A stretch of DNA of 64,000 bases, from the NCBI RefSeq assembly GCF_020177375.1, contig NZ_JAIWHV010000005.1, positions 62,001 through 126,000 on the forward strand. Direction: 5' to 3'. The DNA is from Saliphagus infecundisoli (GTDB lineage: Archaea > Halobacteriota > Halobacteria > Halobacteriales > Natrialbaceae). The translations under genes and the position numbers were made by a program. The notes beneath the pieces were generated by a model. The model made no database searches. It was not told the origin of the DNA and saw only the letters and a program-made list of their open reading frames with translations. This document shows positions 9,332 through 63,144 of this stretch, piece after piece. Position 1 is the first letter of the stretch, and each line of letters starts with the position of its first letter.

Positions 9332-9684
9332 TGTTGTTCGGTCGCATCGTTGGGATGGGGACCACGCGGCCGCGAGGGCACGCGTGAGGACCGACTCCCG
9401 GCCGGTCGCATCGCATTACGTCCCGTTGTTTCCGATGCTAAACAGTAGTGACTCTCGTTCCTATATAAACATAGTTGACCGTCCCGAGTTCATGACATTC
9501 TATTTTCGAGAACGGTTCTAGGAGGAATCTCTCAATGGCCCATAGAACGCGTACAAGCGGCCCTTGAACACCCTCTCCTCGCTCGGTTTCGGTCGAGGGG
9601 CTCCGTCGCGCCGAAACCTATAATAATTCCAATTGTTAGTGGACGGCGAGCAACCCGGATAGGTCCGCCGGTGAAACCCCGCGA
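9332..9684. other. Gene-free stretch upstream of the pilin gene
   Basis: No credible gene is seen here on either strand. The right half holds an inverted repeat with 8-bp arms, GGTTTCGG and CCGAAACC, around 9578-9615. It is followed by an AT-rich run (ctataataattccaattg). The left half holds the pilin promoter. The hairpin may terminate transcription of the membrane-protein gene ending at 9685, but this is inference. Confidence 0.5.
9461..9470 (-). promoter_or_regulatory. TATA box upstream of the pilin gene
   Basis: On the minus strand this reads GTTTATATAG, a good archaeal TATA box in an otherwise GC-rich genome. It lies about 130 bp before the pilin ATG at 9331. Transcription from it would give an untranslated leader of roughly 100 nt, unlike the leaderless pattern common elsewhere in this window. 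Confidence 0.5.
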
Positions 9685-9966
9685 TCAGCGTGCCAGACGG
9701 AACCCGTAGTAGAGCCCGCCGGCGGCAACCGCAACCGCGTAGCACGCGGCGAGGAAGGGCACCCAGTAGATCCAGAGATCGTAGGAAACGAGGCGGCTCC
9801 CGACGGCGGTCATCGCGAGCATGACGGTATAGCCCGGCGCCGCAAGCGGCGTCATCAGCCGAGCGTCGAAGACCCCGAGAACGAAGGGAACGAAGAGCAG
9901 GCAGAACACGACAACCGTCGCCGGACCCGAGAGGACCCGGACCGCGAGGGTGCGGAAGTCGGTCAT
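9685..9966 (-). CDS. Small membrane protein (93 aa)
   Basis: This 93-residue protein has three hydrophobic segments: VVVFCLLFVPFVLGVF, YTVMLAMTAVGSRLV and WIYWVPFLAACYAVAVAAGG. Its start (ATG 9966) overlaps the stop of the upstream M14-like hydrolase gene by ATGA, so the two are almost certainly translated as one unit. The function is not recognised. It may anchor or assist the exported hydrolase, but that rests on context alone. Confidence 0.75.
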   Translation of the reverse strand: MTDFRTLAVRVLSGPATVVVFCLLFVPFVLGVFDARLMTPLAAPGYTVMLAMTAVGSRLVSYDLWIYWVPFLAACYAVAVAAGGLYYGFRLAR

Positions 9967-10772
9967 GCGATCCGCGCCATCCCGTACCGTTCCAACAGCC
10001 GTTCGGTGATCTCGAGGGTCCAGCGCACCTGGGTACCCGGATCGAGCAGGAAGTCGGTGAGTTCGACCAGAAAGCCCGCCCGGTCGAGGTCGCCCCCGAC
10101 CTTGTGGATCAGGAGCGGCCCCTCGCCGGTGAGCGTGTTCCCCATCGAGAACCGGTGGGCGACCATGGTCCGCGGGACGTGCTCGTCGTTCATGTGCTCG
10201 ATCACCGCCCCGGCGTCGGCGGGGGCGTCGCCGGCCGCCGTCGGGAAGATCGCCTGGCCGACCCACCGGTGATGGGTGCCGTAGATCCCCCGCGAGCGAT
10301 GCAGGTCGAGGACGACGTCCGGATCGGAGCGTTCGACCTCGGCCCACAGTGCCCGTGCGAGTTCGGTCGTCGGCTCCCGCCCCGCGGGGAACTGCCGGTT
10401 CAGATCGCCGTCCGGACCCCCGCGTTCGTTGCGCTCGAGGGCGACGATCTCCGCCCAGGGGATCACGACCAGAGTGCCCCGTTCGATCCCCCAGCCGATC
10501 ACTTCCTCGGCCGCCCGGTAGCCGCTCGTCTCGCCGCCGTGGACCCCGCCGACGACCACCGCCGTCGGCCCCGTCTCGGGTCCCTCGAGTTCGAACACGG
10601 TCGTCTCCCGGTCGGTCCCCTCCATGATCGGCCGGCGGGAGAGTGCCATCTCCCGGTGGGGGTCGGCAGGTTCGCCCGGCCCCGACGACTCGGCCCGCGA
10701 CCGGACGAGGGTGGCCCCCCCGGCCAGGCCGGAAACCGCAGCCCCGGCCCCGAGAACCGTCCGTCTGTGCAT
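9963..10772 (-). CDS. Succinylglutamate desuccinylase/aspartoacylase-like hydrolase with Tat-like leader
   Basis: This 269-residue zinc hydrolase is of the M14/AstE-AspA type. The first zinc motif GGVHGGETSG (H and E ligands) is near residue 77, the arginine-type substrate patch is DLNRQF, and the second zinc histidine lies in DLHRSRG. The N-terminus MHRRTVLGAGAAVSGLAGG has twin arginines and a short hydrophobic stretch, so Tat export is likely. The reaction may be de-amidation or trimming of a terminal acyl or peptide group, but the substrate is unknown. It is translationally coupled to the small membrane protein downstream. Confidence 0.8.
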   Translation of the reverse strand: MHRRTVLGAGAAVSGLAGGATLVRSRAESSGPGEPADPHREMALSRRPIMEGTDRETTVFELEGPETGPTAVVVGGVHGGETSGYRAAEEVIGWGIERGTLVVIPWAEIVALERNERGGPDGDLNRQFPAGREPTTELARALWAEVERSDPDVVLDLHRSRGIYGTHHRWVGQAIFPTAAGDAPADAGAVIEHMNDEHVPRTMVAHRFSMGNTLTGEGPLLIHKVGGDLDRAGFLVELTDFLLDPGTQVRWTLEITERLLERYGMARIA

Positions 10773-10828
10773 ATCGGTGACTCTCGAGCGAGCGAGGATA
10801 AATGATGTGTCATCCGCGGAGAGCCCAC

Positions 10829-11058
10829 GGATTCGAACGTCGTCGCGATCGTCCTCGAGCCGTCAGAAATCGGTCGATGACCCCCGTTGGCTCGTCACAG
10901 TTCCCTGGGCCCTGACGGATTCGAACCATGTGGAGACCGTCACGCTCGCTTCGCTCGTGAGCTGCGACTCCCCGGATTCGAACCGCCAGCGATCCGAACG
11001 ATTCGCTCCTCGCGTCCGCTCGTCGCAGAATCGATGGGCCCTGACGGATTCGAACCAT
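10829..11058 (-). repeat. Direct repeats of tRNA 3'-end sequence downstream of the CAT tRNA
   Basis: The 24 bp forming the tRNA T-arm and 3' acceptor strand (11035-11058) occur again, identical, at 10906-10929. The core ggattcgaac appears four times in the same orientation, at 10829, 10917, 10974 and 11046. A small hairpin (cacgctcgcttcgctcgtg) lies between copies. Partial tRNA 3' ends next to a tRNA gene are the usual attachment-site scars left by tyrosine-recombinase elements. No integrase gene is present here. Confidence 0.7.
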
Positions 11059-11138
11059 CGACCACTCGGTGTCCCACAACACCCCCAATGGGGCACTGAT
11101 ATGAGCCGAGCGCTCTCACCGGACTGAGCTAAGGGCCC
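11035..11138 (-). tRNA. tRNA with CAT anticodon (elongator Met or Ile2), 29-nt intron
   Basis: Acceptor strands GGGCCCT and AGGGCCC pair fully. The D-stem is GCTC/GAGC, the anticodon stem CTCGG/CCGAG, the T-arm GATGG-TTCGAAT-CCGTC and the discriminator A. The anticodon is CAT. A 29-nt intron follows A37, the canonical archaeal position. After its removal the tRNA is 75 nt, and CCA is not encoded. It is not the initiator type, because its first pair is G-C rather than the mismatch expected there. Sequence alone does not separate elongator Met from Ile2 (agmatidine-modified); intron-bearing elongator tRNA-Met is known in haloarchaea. Confidence 0.9.
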
Positions 11139-11235
11139 TCGTTCGGAGAACTCGAGCCCCGCAGTTAACCCTTACTCTCCCGGGCGAAAACGGGGCGGTC
11201 GCGGCGGTTCCACGGCGGTCGCGGGTCGAGCGGAC

Positions 11236-11400
11236 TCAGGCCGCGAGACCCAGCGCCGCGAGCTCGTCGTCGTCGAGTTCGGCCTCGAGTTCCTCGCGGC
11301 TGTGACTCTCGACGACGTCCTCTCGTTCCTCGGCGCTCAGTTCGGTCGCGTCCTCGAAGCAGTGGCACATGGCATCCGGAGCGTGGGCTGGAAGGTCCAT
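11236..11400 (-). CDS. Small CHC-motif haloarchaeal protein (54 aa)
   Basis: This 54-residue acidic protein contains MCHCFEDATELSAEEREDVV and then a helix ending ELAALGLAA. The Cys-His-Cys trio is its only notable motif and could bind a metal. ATG 11400 is chosen, with an internal ATG at MCHC as alternative. A TATA-like stretch, ATATAAAATAA on the minus strand, lies at 11461-11471, about 60 bp upstream. I recall similar short proteins in haloarchaea but no function. Confidence 0.65.
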   Translation of the reverse strand: MDLPAHAPDAMCHCFEDATELSAEEREDVVESHSREELEAELDDDELAALGLAA

Positions 11401-11521
11401 AAAGGCTGTTAGCGGCGGTTTCGTGGTTGTGTAATAACCCGAGTCACCTAGCAATTGTTGTTATTTTATATCCCAAGTTTGGTAATTTCCGACGGGGAAA
11501 GACGCGATCTCCCGACCCCCC

Positions 11522-12115
11522 TCACTCCTCGCTGAAGGCGTGGAGCGTCCGGTCTTCGGTCCCCGCGCGGTGGCTGGTCGCGAGTCCCGCGAGGTGGGGG
11601 GCCTCGGGGACGATCAGCTCCTCGCAGGCGGTCCGGACGGCGTTCGTGCTTCCCGGTAGACAGAAGACGGGCGTGTCGGCGGCGATCCCCGCCGTCGCCC
11701 GGGAGGCCATCGCGCGAGTGCCGACCTCCTCCCAGGAGAGCGCCCGGAACAGCTCGCCGAAGCCGGGAAGCTCGCGCTCGAACAGCGCCGACGTCGCCTC
11801 CGGGGAGACGTCGTCGGCCGTGACGCCGGTCCCGCCCGTGGTCACGACGACGTCGATCCCTCGCTGGGCGACGAGCCCCCGTACGGCGGTTCGGATCGCG
11901 CCGTAGTCGTCCCGGACGAGTTCGCGCTCGCGGATCTCGTGGCCCGCCGCCTCGAAGACCTCCGCGATCGTGTCCCCGCCCGGATCCTCGGGCTCCTCGT
12001 CCGCGCGTGCATCAGTCGCTCGAGAGGTCGAGACAGTGACGATCCCGACGTAGAGGGGATCGATGAGATCGTGGCCGTGGTCGTCGGTGGTACGTCTGTC
12101 GGCGGAATCTGACAT
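11522..12115 (-). CDS. moaB: Molybdenum cofactor biosynthesis protein MoaB
   Basis: This 197-residue protein has a MoaB/Mog domain from about residue 20. The conserved motif TTGGTGVTADDVSPEAT (near residue 91) and the PGSTNAVRTACEEL segment bind the molybdopterin substrate. In archaea MoaB adenylylates molybdopterin before molybdenum insertion. The N-terminal 18 residues and C-terminal tail are acidic extensions. It stands alone on the minus strand beside tRNA-Asn. Confidence 0.9.
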   Translation of the reverse strand: MSDSADRRTTDDHGHDLIDPLYVGIVTVSTSRATDARADEEPEDPGGDTIAEVFEAAGHEIRERELVRDDYGAIRTAVRGLVAQRGIDVVVTTGGTGVTADDVSPEATSALFERELPGFGELFRALSWEEVGTRAMASRATAGIAADTPVFCLPGSTNAVRTACEELIVPEAPHLAGLATSHRAGTEDRTLHAFSEE

Positions 12116-12164
12116 GGCCGGGACTCCTCGCTGCAGGGAGATATAGACGGCGGGAGAACGGAAG

Positions 12165-12268
12165 CGCCGAAGCCAGGACTCGAACCTGGGACCGCCTCGT
12201 ATCTGCGGCGATCAGCCGGCCTGTATCGCCGTAACAGCGAGGTGCTCTACCAACTGAGCTACTTCGGC
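12165..12268 (-). tRNA. tRNA-Asn (GTT) with 31-nt intron
   Basis: Acceptor strands GCCGAAG and CTTCGGC pair fully. The D-stem is GCTC/GAGC, the anticodon stem CCTCG/CGAGG, the T-arm CCAGG-TTCGAGT-CCTGG and the discriminator G. The anticodon is GTT. A 31-nt intron lies after A37; its first seven bases (CGGCGAT) pair with ATCGCCG inside it, fitting a bulge-helix-bulge fold. Mature length is 73 nt without CCA. Confidence 0.9.
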
Positions 12269-12359
12269 CCGTCTCGGTGTTGTCGGGTGGATTTGATAGG
12301 GCTTTCGCTTCCCGCCGGCCTTCGACACCCTTTCACTCCCGCCGCGAATAGGGCAGGCG

Positions 12360-13730
12360 ATGACCGACGACGCCGGCGGGGACGCGTTCGAGCGGGTCAC
12401 GAGCGAGGTCGCCGAGCGAGTCGACCCCGGCTCCGAGGAACGCGAGCGCCTCCGGGCGGTCGCCGACACCCTCGTCGAGCGCGCCCGGCGGGCCGCAACC
12501 GAGCGCTGTCCGGACGCCGACGTCCTCCGGGTCGGCTCGACTGCCCGGAACACCTGGATCAGCGGCGACCGCGACATCGACGTCTTCGTCCGCTTTCCGA
12601 CCGGTCTGGACCGAGAGACCTTAGAGCGCTACGGTCTCGCCGTCGGCCACGAGACCCTTCCCGAGGGCCGCGAGGAGTACGCCGAACATCCCTACGTCAG
12701 CGGCGAGTTCGAGGGGTTCGACGTCGACGTCGTCCCCTGCTTTCGCGTCGAGAGCGCGACGGAGACCCGGTCGGCGGTCGATCGGACCCCCTTTCACACG
12801 CGCTACCTCCAGGAGCGCCTCGACGACGAGCTCGCCAGCGAAATCCGTCTCGCAAAGGGCTTTCTGAAGGGGGTCGGGATCTACGGTAGTGACCTCCGAA
12901 CCCGGGGATTTGGGGGATATCTCACCGAACTGCTCGTCTGTGCGTACGGCGGTTTTCGCGAACTCTGTGAAGCTGCCGCCGACTGGCAGCCGCCGGTCGA
13001 ACTCGACCCCGAGGGCCACGGACGCGAATCGTTCGCGGACCCGCTGGTCGTCATCGACCCCACGGACCCCGAACGCAACGTCGCCGCCGTCTGCTCGGCC
13101 GAGAGCGTCGCCCGGTTCCAACACCACGCGCGGGACCTGCTCGCCGACCCTCGCGCCGAACTGTTCGAGCCCGACGACCTCGGCCCGCTCTCCGCCGAGG
13201 CGGTCGCCGGCCACGTCGAGCGCCGGGGAACGACCCCCCTCGCGCTCTCGTTTCCGGCCCCCGACCTCGTCGACGACCAGCTCTATCCCCAACTGCGGAA
13301 ATCACTCGCCGGCATCGCCCGCGAGCTCGAGGACCGCGGGTTCGACGTCCTTCGAACCGCGACGTTCGCGGCGGAGGACGCGGTGCTCCTGGTCGAACTC
13401 GCGGTCGCCTCGCTGCCGGCCGTCGAGCGCCACGAGGGACCCCCGGTCGCCGTTCGCTCCCACGCCGAGGGCTTTTACGACGCCTACGCCGACGAGCCGG
13501 CGGCCTACGGCCCCTACGTCGAGGGCGGCCGGTACGTCGTCGAGCGCGAGCGGGAGTTCACGTCGGCGCGGGCGTTCCTCGAGAGCGACCGGCTGTTCGA
13601 CGTCGCCCTCGGCGCACACGTCGAGACCGCCTTGGAGGAGGACTACGACCTGCTCGTCGGCGAGGACCTCGCGGCGCTGGCCGACCCCTTCGGCGCCGAG
13701 CTGGCCCGGTACTTCGACCCGAGCCCCTAA
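12360..13730 (+). CDS. cca: CCA-adding tRNA nucleotidyltransferase (class I)
   Basis: This 456-residue archaeal class I CCA-adding enzyme adds CCA to tRNA 3' ends, which this genome needs because none of its tRNA genes here encodes CCA. The nucleotidyltransferase core is clear: GSTARNTWISGDRDIDVF near residue 59 with the catalytic Asp pair, and a third Asp in FEGFDVDVVPCF. The central and tail domains follow to the usual family length. It is divergent from tRNA-Asn, whose product it would process. Confidence 0.93.
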   Translation: MTDDAGGDAFERVTSEVAERVDPGSEERERLRAVADTLVERARRAATERCPDADVLRVGSTARNTWISGDRDIDVFVRFPTGLDRETLERYGLAVGHETLPEGREEYAEHPYVSGEFEGFDVDVVPCFRVESATETRSAVDRTPFHTRYLQERLDDELASEIRLAKGFLKGVGIYGSDLRTRGFGGYLTELLVCAYGGFRELCEAAADWQPPVELDPEGHGRESFADPLVVIDPTDPERNVAAVCSAESVARFQHHARDLLADPRAELFEPDDLGPLSAEAVAGHVERRGTTPLALSFPAPDLVDDQLYPQLRKSLAGIARELEDRGFDVLRTATFAAEDAVLLVELAVASLPAVERHEGPPVAVRSHAEGFYDAYADEPAAYGPYVEGGRYVVEREREFTSARAFLESDRLFDVALGAHVETALEEDYDLLVGEDLAALADPFGAELARYFDPSP

Positions 13731-60381: not shown

Positions 60382-63144
60382 ATGACGCCATCGGAGATAT
60401 CGCTTTCCGGGACGTGGGAGCTTCGTCTGGACCCCGACGGGGAGGGTGCGGTCGGCTGGCCCGACGCCGAGACCGACGGGACGATCACCCTTCCGGGGAC
60501 CACCGACGAGTACGGCTACGGCGAGCGTCCCGAGGAGACACCGCGCGAACACCTGACCCGCACCTCGCGCTACGAGGGGCCGGCATGGTACAGGCGCACG
60601 ATCCCGGTTCCCGACTCGTGGGCCGGGAAGCGGGTCACGCTGACCGTTGAGCGGAGCCGCGAGACGACGCTGTGGGTCGACGGCGAGCGGATCGGTTCGC
60701 GGGTCTGTCTGAGCACGCCCCACGTCTACGACGTGACCGACGCGCTCGAGCCCGGCGACTGCGAGGTCACCATCCGAGTCGACAACGACGGCGATTCGAT
60801 GGATCGCCGCGGGGTGAGACGGTCCCATGCAGTGGCCGAGCACACCCAGACGAACTGGAACGGGGTCGTCGGCGACCTCCGTCTCGAGGCGACCGACCCG
60901 GTCCGGATCGAAGATCTCCGGGCGATCCCCGACGGCGACGGCTTCGCCCTCGAGATCACCACGGTGAACGACGCCGGGGACGACCGCGAGGGACACCTCC
61001 GGGTCGCCGCCGAGAGCACGAACGCCGACGAGAGCCACCACCCGGACCCGATCGAGCGGCGGGTCGAACTTCCCGCGGGGGAGACGACCCACCAGCTCCG
61101 GTACGCCCTCGGTCCCAACGCCCTGTCGTGGGACGAGTTCTCCCCGGCGGTCTACGAGCTGCGCGCGGCTCTCGATAGCGGGGAGTACGCCGACGAGATC
61201 GAGACGACCGCCGGGCTCCGCGAGGTCGCCGTCGAGGGGACCCAGCTCGCGATCGGGGATCGAACCGTCTTCCTCCGGGGGCGGACCGACTGCTGTGTCT
61301 TCCCCGAGACGGGCTACCCGCCGACCTCGACCGCAGAGTGGGTCGAGCACATGGAGGTCGCGAAGGCCCACGGGCTGAACCACTACCGCTTTCATAGCTG
61401 GTGTCCCCCCGAGGCGGCCTTCGAGGCGGCCGACCGCGTCGGGATCTACCTCCTGCCCGAGTGCTCCCAGTGGGACGCCCGGGGGTCGCTGGTCGAGGAC
61501 GACGACTACGACTACTACCGACGGGAGGCCGACCGGATCCTCGCGGCCTACGGCAATCATCCCTCGTTCGTCGCGTTCGGCCTGGGCAACGAGAACCAGG
61601 GCGACGAGGAGCGGATGGCCGACCTCGTCGCCCGCTGTCGGGACCGCGACGGCCGCCGGCTCTACGTCTCGGGCGCGAACGACTTCCTCTCGGCGCCCCG
61701 TCCCGGCCCGCAGGACGACCTCTTCATCACCGCGAACGTCCCCGAGGATCCCGACGCTCCCGAGGAATCGGATCTGGTCCCGGTCCGCGGGACGGGCCAC
61801 GTCAACGATCGCCCGCCCTCGACCACGACCGACTACCGCGAGGAGATCGCACCCTACGACCTCCCGGTCGTCGGCCACGAGATCGGCCAGTTCCAGATCT
61901 ATCCAGACTTCGACGAGGCCCGGAAGTACACCGGCGTCCTCGAGGCCCGCAACCTCGAACGGTTCGAGCGTTCGCTCGCCGACCACCACATGGCGGGCGA
62001 CGACCGGCGGTTTCAGGCCGCCTCGGGCGCGCTCGCGGCGACGTGCTACCGCGAGGAGATCGAGGCCGCGCTGCGAACCCCGGGGTTCGGGGGGTTCCAG
62101 CTGCTCGACCTGGCCGACTTCCCCGGCCAGGGGACCGCCCTCGTGGGGGTCCGCGACGCCTTCATGGACTCGAAGGGCGTGATCGAGCCCCACGAGTGGC
62201 GGCGGTTCTGTGCCCCGCAAGTTCCCCTCCTCCTGATGGACCGCTACGCCTGGACCGACGGCGAGACGTTCGAGGCCGAGGCGAAGCTCGCGAACTACGG
62301 CCCGGCAGGGGTCGAGGACGCCGCCGCCGAATGGGCAATCACGGACGGCGAGCGAAAGGTCGCGGGCGGCACCCTCCCGGACCGGACCGTCGACCAGGGC
62401 GAACTCGCCCCGCTCGGAACGATCGAGGCGTCGCTCTCGGAGGTCGACGCGCCCGCCGCCCTCGAGATCGATCTCGAAGTTTCGGGGACCGATCGCCGGA
62501 CGAGCTACCCGATCTGGGTGTACCCCGACCGCTCGGACGACCCCCTCGCCGACGTGAACGTCGCCGTCCGGCACCGTTTCGACGACCGGGCCCGGGAACT
62601 GCTCGCGGAGGGCCGGCGGGTCCTGGTCGTGCCCGACGAGGGGGCGCTCCGGTACTCGCTGCGAGGGTCGTTCCAGCCGGACTTCTGGAACTACGAGCTG
62701 TTCAAGCAGAACGGAAAACCGGGGACGCTGGGGATCGCCTGCGACCCGGAGCACCCGCTGTTCGAGTCGTTCCCGACGGCGGGCCACGCCGACTGGCAGT
62801 GGTGGCACCTGCTTCGCCACGCTCGGCCGATCGTCGTCGACGACGCGCCCGCGGCGTTCGAGCCGACGGTCCGGGCGATCGACACGATCTACCGCAATCA
62901 CAAGCTCGCGCTGTTCGCCGAGACCGCCGTCGGCGACGGACGGCTCGCGGTCTGCTCGCTCGACCTCGAGCCCGACCATCCGACGGTCGACCAGTTCCGG
63001 GAGAGCCTCGCCGCCTATCTCGAGTCGCCGGCGTTCGACCCGGAGCCGGCGATCACGACCGGCGTCCTCGAGAGCCTCCTCGGCGGCGAGGACGAACGAG
63101 GAGCGTACGGCGACGACGCGAACGGCCCCTGGATCGACGGCTGA
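60382..63144 (+). CDS. Glycoside hydrolase family 2-like enzyme
   Basis: This 920-residue enzyme has an N-terminal sugar-binding domain (1-165; ISLSGTWELRLD, AWYRRTIPVPDSWAGKRVTL, TTLWVDGERIG). An Ig-like domain (170-285) follows, then a TIM barrel. The acid/base Glu404 is in FGLGNENQG and the likely nucleophile Glu500 in VGHEIGQFQIYPDF. A C-terminal beta domain and an alpha/beta tail complete it. No signal peptide is seen, so it acts inside the cell on imported oligosaccharides. GH2 covers beta-galactosidase, mannosidase, glucuronidase and glucosaminidase; I cannot choose. Confidence 0.88.
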   Translation: MTPSEISLSGTWELRLDPDGEGAVGWPDAETDGTITLPGTTDEYGYGERPEETPREHLTRTSRYEGPAWYRRTIPVPDSWAGKRVTLTVERSRETTLWVDGERIGSRVCLSTPHVYDVTDALEPGDCEVTIRVDNDGDSMDRRGVRRSHAVAEHTQTNWNGVVGDLRLEATDPVRIEDLRAIPDGDGFALEITTVNDAGDDREGHLRVAAESTNADESHHPDPIERRVELPAGETTHQLRYALGPNALSWDEFSPAVYELRAALDSGEYADEIETTAGLREVAVEGTQLAIGDRTVFLRGRTDCCVFPETGYPPTSTAEWVEHMEVAKAHGLNHYRFHSWCPPEAAFEAADRVGIYLLPECSQWDARGSLVEDDDYDYYRREADRILAAYGNHPSFVAFGLGNENQGDEERMADLVARCRDRDGRRLYVSGANDFLSAPRPGPQDDLFITANVPEDPDAPEESDLVPVRGTGHVNDRPPSTTTDYREEIAPYDLPVVGHEIGQFQIYPDFDEARKYTGVLEARNLERFERSLADHHMAGDDRRFQAASGALAATCYREEIEAALRTPGFGGFQLLDLADFPGQGTALVGVRDAFMDSKGVIEPHEWRRFCAPQVPLLLMDRYAWTDGETFEAEAKLANYGPAGVEDAAAEWAITDGERKVAGGTLPDRTVDQGELAPLGTIEASLSEVDAPAALEIDLEVSGTDRRTSYPIWVYPDRSDDPLADVNVAVRHRFDDRARELLAEGRRVLVVPDEGALRYSLRGSFQPDFWNYELFKQNGKPGTLGIACDPEHPLFESFPTAGHADWQWWHLLRHARPIVVDDAPAAFEPTVRAIDTIYRNHKLALFAETAVGDGRLAVCSLDLEPDHPTVDQFRESLAAYLESPAFDPEPAITTGVLESLLGGEDERGAYGDDANGPWIDG

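Follow-up and report, generated by a model that had tools for sequence, protein, structure and literature searches.

Behind a tRNA gene with a CAT anticodon, the haloarchaeon Saliphagus infecundisoli (Natrialbaceae) carries what is probably a two-unit array of non-coding hairpin cassettes, which sit at the tRNA 3′ end and would recombine at its T-loop in the manner of integron or BIME arrays. The array lies in a stretch of 64,000 nucleotides (NZ_JAIWHV010000005.1, positions 62,001 to 126,000, hereafter the window), and the mobility of its units is deduced from sequence comparison. The order within a unit, or module, is the tRNA 3′ end, hairpin A, an inverted T-arm core (I), hairpin B and a copy (D2) of the last 21 nt of the same tRNA. 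The following features make up the array in the window.

11035..11138, minus strand: tRNA-CAT gene, the anchor of the array (Rfam RF00005, 57.9 bits; ARAGORN with introns)
11071..11099, minus strand: tRNA-CAT intron of 29 nt, with coordinates derived from the ARAGORN insertion point
11035..11055, minus strand: D1, the last 21 nt of tRNA-CAT, from the T-loop to the discriminator base, which form the core of the element
10999..11034, minus strand: hairpin A of module 1, with arms CGATTC/GAATCG and apex CGAGCGGACGCGAG; the same hairpin covaries in 13 relatives
10974..10989, minus strand: I, the degenerate inverted T-arm core of module 1; its flank is inverted and its T-loop palindromic
10930..10973, minus strand: hairpin B of module 1, with apex GAGCGAAGCGAG, from sequence and clustering
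10906..10929, minus strand: D2, which repeats the tRNA 3′ end perfectly over 24 bp and closes module 1
10839..10905, minus strand: putative interior of a decayed module 2, from comparison with two-module arrays of relatives
10853-10866: possible remnant inverted core CTGACGGCTCGAGG within module 2, from sequence and comparison with relatives
10818..10838, minus strand: D3, a degenerate repeat of the tRNA 3′ end that keeps 15 of 21 nt and closes module 2

The anchoring tRNA gene has its 29-nt intron inserted after nt 39 of the gene (ARAGORN, introns allowed) and was missed by the default ARAGORN run. The scan calls it tRNA-Met; we presume that it may be tRNA-Ile2. A second intron-bearing tRNA in the window, Asn(GTT), is located at 12165-12268 on the minus strand (61.8 bits, 31-nt intron), and the default tRNA scan misses it too. 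Within the family, the intron of the CAT tRNA is polymorphic (L004-L112), being present in 67 rows of the comparison and missing from 40. Modules are found at the CAT tRNA in 10 of the 67 intron-bearing rows and in 12 of the 40 intronless ones.

The initial annotation had described an exact copy of the T-arm and acceptor 129 bp from the gene, and this 24-mer is indeed found at 10906-10929 and 11035-11058, with a chance expectation of 0.00. The two copies are separated by 105 bp, which leaves no space for an integrase gene. The hairpin that had been noticed between the copies is hairpin B of module 1. Two weaker copies had also been reported, all in the same orientation, and this holds in part. 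GGATTCGAAC does occur four times on the plus strand of the window, every time within this stretch (10829, 10917, 10974 and 11046), against a chance expectation of 0.25, and four copies were reached in none of 100 shuffles. The copy at 10974, however, is better read as inverted. Only the palindromic TTCGAA makes it read like the others; the flanking CTGGCG is closer to the T-arm of the tRNA in reverse complement, and in relatives the matching position is usually occupied by an inverted copy. A chance origin of the repeats is ruled out by the shuffle test and by the 24-mer expectation. In the whole genome of S. infecundisoli (4.53 Mb), a 16-mer from the core was found at only two places, both of them here, and the genome-wide search that had been suggested restricts the 24-mer, with up to one mismatch, to the two copies at this locus.

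The unit in the window is itself degenerate. Its inverted core matches weakly (6 of 100 shuffles were as good) and its DNA folding energy is ordinary (z −0.71), with a predicted fold that pairs I with D2. By itself, the hairpin apex motif is close to its chance frequency: the window has 31 occurrences, vs 22.75 expected and 31 in the largest of 20 random runs. Hairpin B clusters with that of L012, behind the same tRNA, and with that of L169, behind tRNA-Ser(GGA) of the same genome. Module 1 would be the younger of the two modules, and module 2 the older, decayed one.

The layout is widespread. About 53 distinct tRNAs were parsed in the genome of S. infecundisoli, and they yielded 11 units besides that of the window. 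These stand behind Gly(GCC), Arg(CCT), Val(CAC), Ser(GGA), Ser(CGA), Ser(TGA), His, Leu(TAG) and Leu(GAG), behind a second, initiator-like Met(CAT), and, doubtfully, behind Phe, so that arrays follow about a fifth of the tRNAs in this genome. As a side observation, about twelve tRNA genes are clustered within 3 kb (G000:C25:6686-9493; L116, L200), alike in several genomes and possibly borne by a virus or plasmid.

In the family, two GTTCGAATCC boxes 85-115 bp apart were found in 115 of 125 genomes and in all 29 genera, and the reversed two-box pattern was not among the matches listed for these genomes. Class-wide, the two-box pattern occurs in 344 of 391 Halobacteria genomes and 82 of 87 genera; it catches full tRNA pairs too, as with two of the seven matches in S. 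infecundisoli, which fall within a tRNA cluster. A relaxed pattern searched over the phylum was present in all 43 sampled Halobacteria vs 43 of 203 other genomes. Full tRNA pairs were rejected as the general form: they account for 8 of the 10 loci inspected outside Halobacteria, and within Halobacteria they were removed by script. A three-box pattern was found in at least 120 stretches of a named collection, and among the 120 matches listed seven are clearly non-halobacterial by title (three spirochaetes, one Oligoflexia and three Woesearchaeota). When 80 listed stretches and one viral contig were parsed, 68 of the 88 matches started within a tRNA and ended within a partial copy, 17 started outside a called tRNA, and 3 were two full tRNAs. 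L306, L310 and L352, from the Oligoflexia and two Woesearchaeota, have a three-box match with a partial second copy, which may be due to chance.

A strict parse covered 373 distinct tRNAs and gave 274 units with D2, behind 29 tRNA types. I was recognized in 258 of these 274 units by a test looser than the free-form one, which found 33 of 126 modules without an inverted core. A looser filter, with 40 more loci, gave 326 units and 32 tRNA types, and the strict parse was preferred. Occupancy cannot be read from this set, since the search patterns behind many of its loci demanded a D2. Across all tRNAs, D2 starts 79-104.5 nt past the tRNA (5th-95th percentile, 126 units). Core copies lying farther out in the short flanks proved to be array units, tRNA clusters or, in one case, a facing pair of arrays. 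The recurrence of the layout in the class and the family rules out a scar private to this strain, and the phenomenon is far more general than first read.

Mobile-element records contain little of it. The 22-base core had no match in viral contigs, where the module pattern was found in one stretch (L276), behind a tRNA-Glu gene. The module had no match in phage records, and in plasmids it matched partially in four haloarchaeal records, one region of which was inspected. Apart from tRNA, no Rfam family exceeded its gathering score in the window (9500-12500, E up to 1) or in 12 loci (E up to 0.5), and three weak matches besides tRNA stayed below threshold.

Judging from module alignments, with counts that ignore shared ancestry, D2 and I track the tRNA beside them. 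Over the 11 nt past the common box of D2, 9.80 positions match the module's own tRNA vs 4.17 for other tRNAs (90 modules), and the own tRNA type is the best match in 70 of the 90. The identity ends at the T-loop: at the second base before GTTC, D2 matches its own tRNA at 0.26 and other types at 0.24 (274 units). For the inverted core, the score is 10.79 with the own tRNA and 8.07 with others, and in 53 of 90 modules it lies above the 90th percentile reached with the other types. In 79 of 93 modules, I carries the complement of the variable T-loop base of its tRNA, a count that none of 5000 permutations reached (best 67), and a second, less variable base is complementary in 81 of 93, which 33 of 5000 permutations reached. 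Over 88 modules, the tracking by I is clear at T-loop base 57 (86% vs 54%) and at T-stem bases 63-64 (61% vs 32% and 41% vs 23%), and weak across most of the acceptor part.

Hairpin A is, as its covariation indicates, a real paired structure. In 13 relatives, which were picked for alignability and on whose sequences the structure was also drawn, 95.7% of cells are paired and six of nine pairs changed on both sides; the covariation is 0.434, compared with 0.157 after shuffling and at most 0.131 when the structure is slid. Among 54 modules of a broader set, 35 have an apex of the form X-GA-NN-loop-NN-GA-X, and the apex flanks pair at 5.31 of 8 positions vs 3.77 when swapped between modules. The tRNA end and module together are predicted to fold with a mean z of −3.54 (101 of 126 modules below −2), while flank controls have −0.44 (14 of 93 below −2). 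Among the predicted folds of 88 modules, the partner of I is D1 in 46 and D2 in 35, and in some modules D1, hairpin A and I form a single long predicted hairpin.

The two hairpins differ in how widely they are shared. In the strict parse, whose pair counts likewise ignore shared ancestry, hairpin B is common (at least 85% identity) to 381 pairs of units, 244 of them across different tRNA types, and in 313 of the 381 the partners have clearly different hairpins A. Hairpin A is common to 142 pairs, 129 of which are at the same tRNA type, and both hairpins are common to 19, out of 33,153 pairs. Hairpin B, shared across tRNA types and placed between two T-loops, is thus general, while hairpin A, shared mostly within a tRNA type and on the side that carries the tRNA tail, is largely bound to its tRNA. 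These sharing patterns show that hairpins A and B reassort.

Occupied and vacant sites can be compared at the CAT tRNA. The 105 rows of the family, in which one genome was entered twice and a few genomes have two loci, comprise 22 filled, 11 weak and 72 empty sites, and ten genera have both filled and empty ones. The sequence past D2 in G022 (L021) is 93% identical over 380 bp to the sequence directly past the tRNA in G021 (L020). Similar, mostly less alike cases are L039, L048, L057, L060 and L063, and eleven empty partners of filled CAT sites were verified to be empty. In these alignments, full and empty CAT sites show a match to the base, although the empty sites could alternatively have arisen through deletion between the 21-bp direct repeats.

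Units that adjoin within an array resemble each other no more than randomly paired units do (median 0.62 in both cases; above 0.8 in one of 23 arrays), and plain tandem duplication was rejected on this ground. In the same 23 arrays, the first copy is better preserved than the second in 18, equal in four and worse in one. This polarity is partly an effect of how the loci were retrieved, and we therefore give more weight to the comparison of relatives at tRNA-Leu(TAG), where the tRNA end was the only retrieval criterion (30 loci, taken from the first of 104 genomes with a match). Units were found in 28 of the 29 parsed Leu(TAG) loci: one unit in 17, two in nine, three in one and four in one. Junctions matching at 80% or more over 75 bp occurred 25 times at the same rank and 16 times at a shifted rank. 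The second unit of G018, for example, matches the first of G019 (0.96), and the second of G024 corresponds to the first of G025 (0.919). The first unit of G024 is 0.959 identical to a unit of G012, from another genus, with flanks at only 0.503. Beyond the arrays of G024 and G025, the flanks are 0.603 identical end to end and about 89-90% over 234 bp with a 59-bp offset; since they align only with this offset, the two do not differ by a simple single step. The cleanest case of an apparently swapped hairpin A is G025 and G026, which have a flank identity of 0.957 over 300 bp and the same I, hairpin B and D2, with a different hairpin A. At Leu(TAG), then, close relatives differ either in a unit next to the tRNA or in a hairpin A that has been swapped, and the change may have been a gain or a loss. 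The hairpin swaps could alternatively stem from homologous recombination of transferred DNA.

The CAT tRNA also serves large elements. The 24-mer, with up to one mismatch, is found in 104 of 125 family genomes, in most of them as one copy. A second copy lies 102 bp away in G022 and 113 bp away in G099, and about 35 and 36 kb away in G074 and G078, respectively (L034-L037). The gene scan, which covered the long stretch of G074, revealed a tyrosine integrase of 340 aa (PF00589, E 5.3e-13) 57 bp from the distal 24-mer. Because the 24-mer bounds these long stretches, the CAT tRNA is a real integration site, and the islands that the initial annotation had proposed to look for do exist in relatives, in one of them with an integrase. 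Neither element shows the hairpin module over the 300 bp past the tRNA and the 200 bp that precede the distal copy. As further observations on this tRNA, a second full copy is present on another contig in G073 (L040/L041) and G079 (L042/L043), with similar plasmid matches that are Natrinema megaplasmids. Another kind of partial copy, GATGGTTCGAATCCAAGGGACGGCGTCG-like and about 15 bp after the tRNA, was detected in several genomes (L015, L022 and the distal flank of G074).

Recombination at the T-loop would be the simplest mechanism, in that it fits the left border of D2 identity, a general hairpin B, a tRNA-bound hairpin A and the reassortment of the two. A trans-acting site-specific recombinase, probably a tyrosine integrase, would catalyse the crossover. 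Its site would be the near-palindromic T-loop GTTCGAAYC, contained in each of D1, I and D2, and hairpin segments would be added or swapped between neighbouring T-loop sites. Hairpin B, bordered by two T-loops and devoid of a tRNA-specific tail, could then serve many tRNAs, and hairpin A, whose side bears the tRNA 3′ tail, would stay mostly with one. The substrate may consist of folded single strands, as a duplex of D1 or D2 with I, similar to attC of integrons or attP of CTXphi.

Other explanations account for parts of this picture. The initial annotation had seen successive integration and excision at one tRNA. We retain the repeated site-specific events, as the array units resemble serial insertions and the 24-mer bounds 35-36 kb in two relatives; what we do not retain are the short copies as island scars, since a defined unit of about 100 bp recurs class-wide behind 29 tRNA types and was not seen in either large element over the 300 bp past the tRNA and the 200 bp ahead of the distal copy. 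It is thus unlikely that the array consists of partial tRNA ends left behind by integrated proviruses or plasmids which departed or decayed, even though an integrase adjoins the distal copy in one of the two relatives. The interior is a recurrent structure in which D2 starts 79-104.5 nt past the tRNA, and random decay would not have kept two hairpins and an inverted core. Rather unlikely, too, is a role as a functional RNA or as a regulatory element made in one transcript with the tRNA, such as a switch between pairing of I with the tRNA 3′ end and pairing of I with D2. It would agree with the predicted folding (−3.54 vs −0.44 in controls) and with the pairing of I (with D1 in 46 and D2 in 35 of 88 modules). 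The strongest hint of function is the occupancy of 28 of 29 parsed Leu(TAG) loci. A repeat array conserved in all relatives, which had been named as a sign of a functional RNA, is however realized only in part: the Leu(TAG) loci differ in content, and at the CAT tRNA the arrays are patchy, with filled and empty loci in ten genera. Hairpins reassorted and swapped between relatives also argue against such a function, as does the result for the 12 loci, where tRNA was the only Rfam family above the gathering score.

Two further possibilities concern how the copies were made. An insertion with target-site duplication, by a casposase or Cas1-like enzyme or a single-strand DNA transposase, would attach a hairpin fragment to the tRNA 3′ end and produce D1 and D2 from a 21-bp stagger. 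D2 as a copy of the last 21 nt, with an identity that ends at the T-loop, the base-precise filled and empty sites, and the extra tRNA-proximal unit in some relatives would all be expected. Alone, however, it leaves unexplained why I follows the local T-loop and how hairpin A is exchanged while I, hairpin B and D2 are kept in place, and we regard it as quite improbable. Fold-back copying, in which a polymerase turns at a hairpin and copies the tRNA end backwards to give I and then forwards to give D2, would account for both I and D2 following the local tRNA, and for modules in which D1, hairpin A and I are one long hairpin. Since it does not explain hairpin B types common to several tRNA types, it is very improbable. 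Recombination at the T-loop remains our preferred reading.

Several known systems share traits with the arrays. Integrons collect serial gene cassettes at a primary site, attI, through IntI and folded, imperfect attC hairpins with inverted core boxes. The units described here have such folded sites and inverted boxes too, weakly so in the window; they stand serially beside one primary site, with extra units on the side of that site, and I, hairpin B and D2 together resemble attC. Unlike in integrons, no genes were noticed in the hairpin units, and the core is a tRNA T-loop. The BIME/REP arrays of bacteria alternate direct and inverted cores with two types of spacer, using a conserved REP and a RAYT transposase. 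Their alternation of inverted palindromic units is found again in the D-A-I-B-D layout, whereas the core of the hairpin arrays is a tRNA 3′ end, varies with the tRNA and is found adjoining tRNAs. Casposons carry Cas1 and DNA polymerase genes and terminal repeats; the hairpin unit itself is about 100 bp long. With integrated proviruses and plasmids the window shares a direct repeat of the tRNA 3′ end, the 24-mer present twice, and it lacks an integrase-bearing body in the 105 bp between the repeats.

According to PMC8371274, tRNA 3′ ends are preferred entry points for archaeal viruses and plasmids, and archaeal tRNA integrases favour these ends and, in Thermococcales, tRNAs reading rare codons. 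The SSV, pNOB8 and SNJ2 integrase families treated there likewise use the tRNA 3′ end as a site and generate direct repeats, whereas the hairpin units are about 100 bp long, non-coding, arrayed and equipped with an inverted core. The PATEs and IS605-type elements of Haloquadratum include elements that are also short, haloarchaeal and without a transposase, with palindromes near their ends; PMC3119063 describes PATEs as causing no target duplications, whereas the hairpin units carry 21-bp tRNA-specific direct repeats. In the open PMC literature, which includes these two papers and PMC3623002 and was judged mostly by title, no paper describing such arrays was recognized.

For the Halobacteria as a class, we tentatively suggest, as a possibility that we hold to be somewhat less than even, a class-wide system of recombination at tRNA T-loops, in which a trans-acting recombinase, perhaps working on folded single strands, would add, swap and lose hairpin cassettes and build gene-free, integron-like arrays; these might be buffers or decoys that shield the tRNAs against viral integration. 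Class-wide hairpin arrays at tRNA 3′ ends would represent a new layer of genome dynamics, and they could mislead island finders which treat partial tRNA ends as scars. The many natural pairs of filled, empty and swapped sites are available for identification of the enzyme. Should the substrate be folded single strands, the attC idea would have its archaeal counterpart in these arrays, with the tRNA as the primary site.
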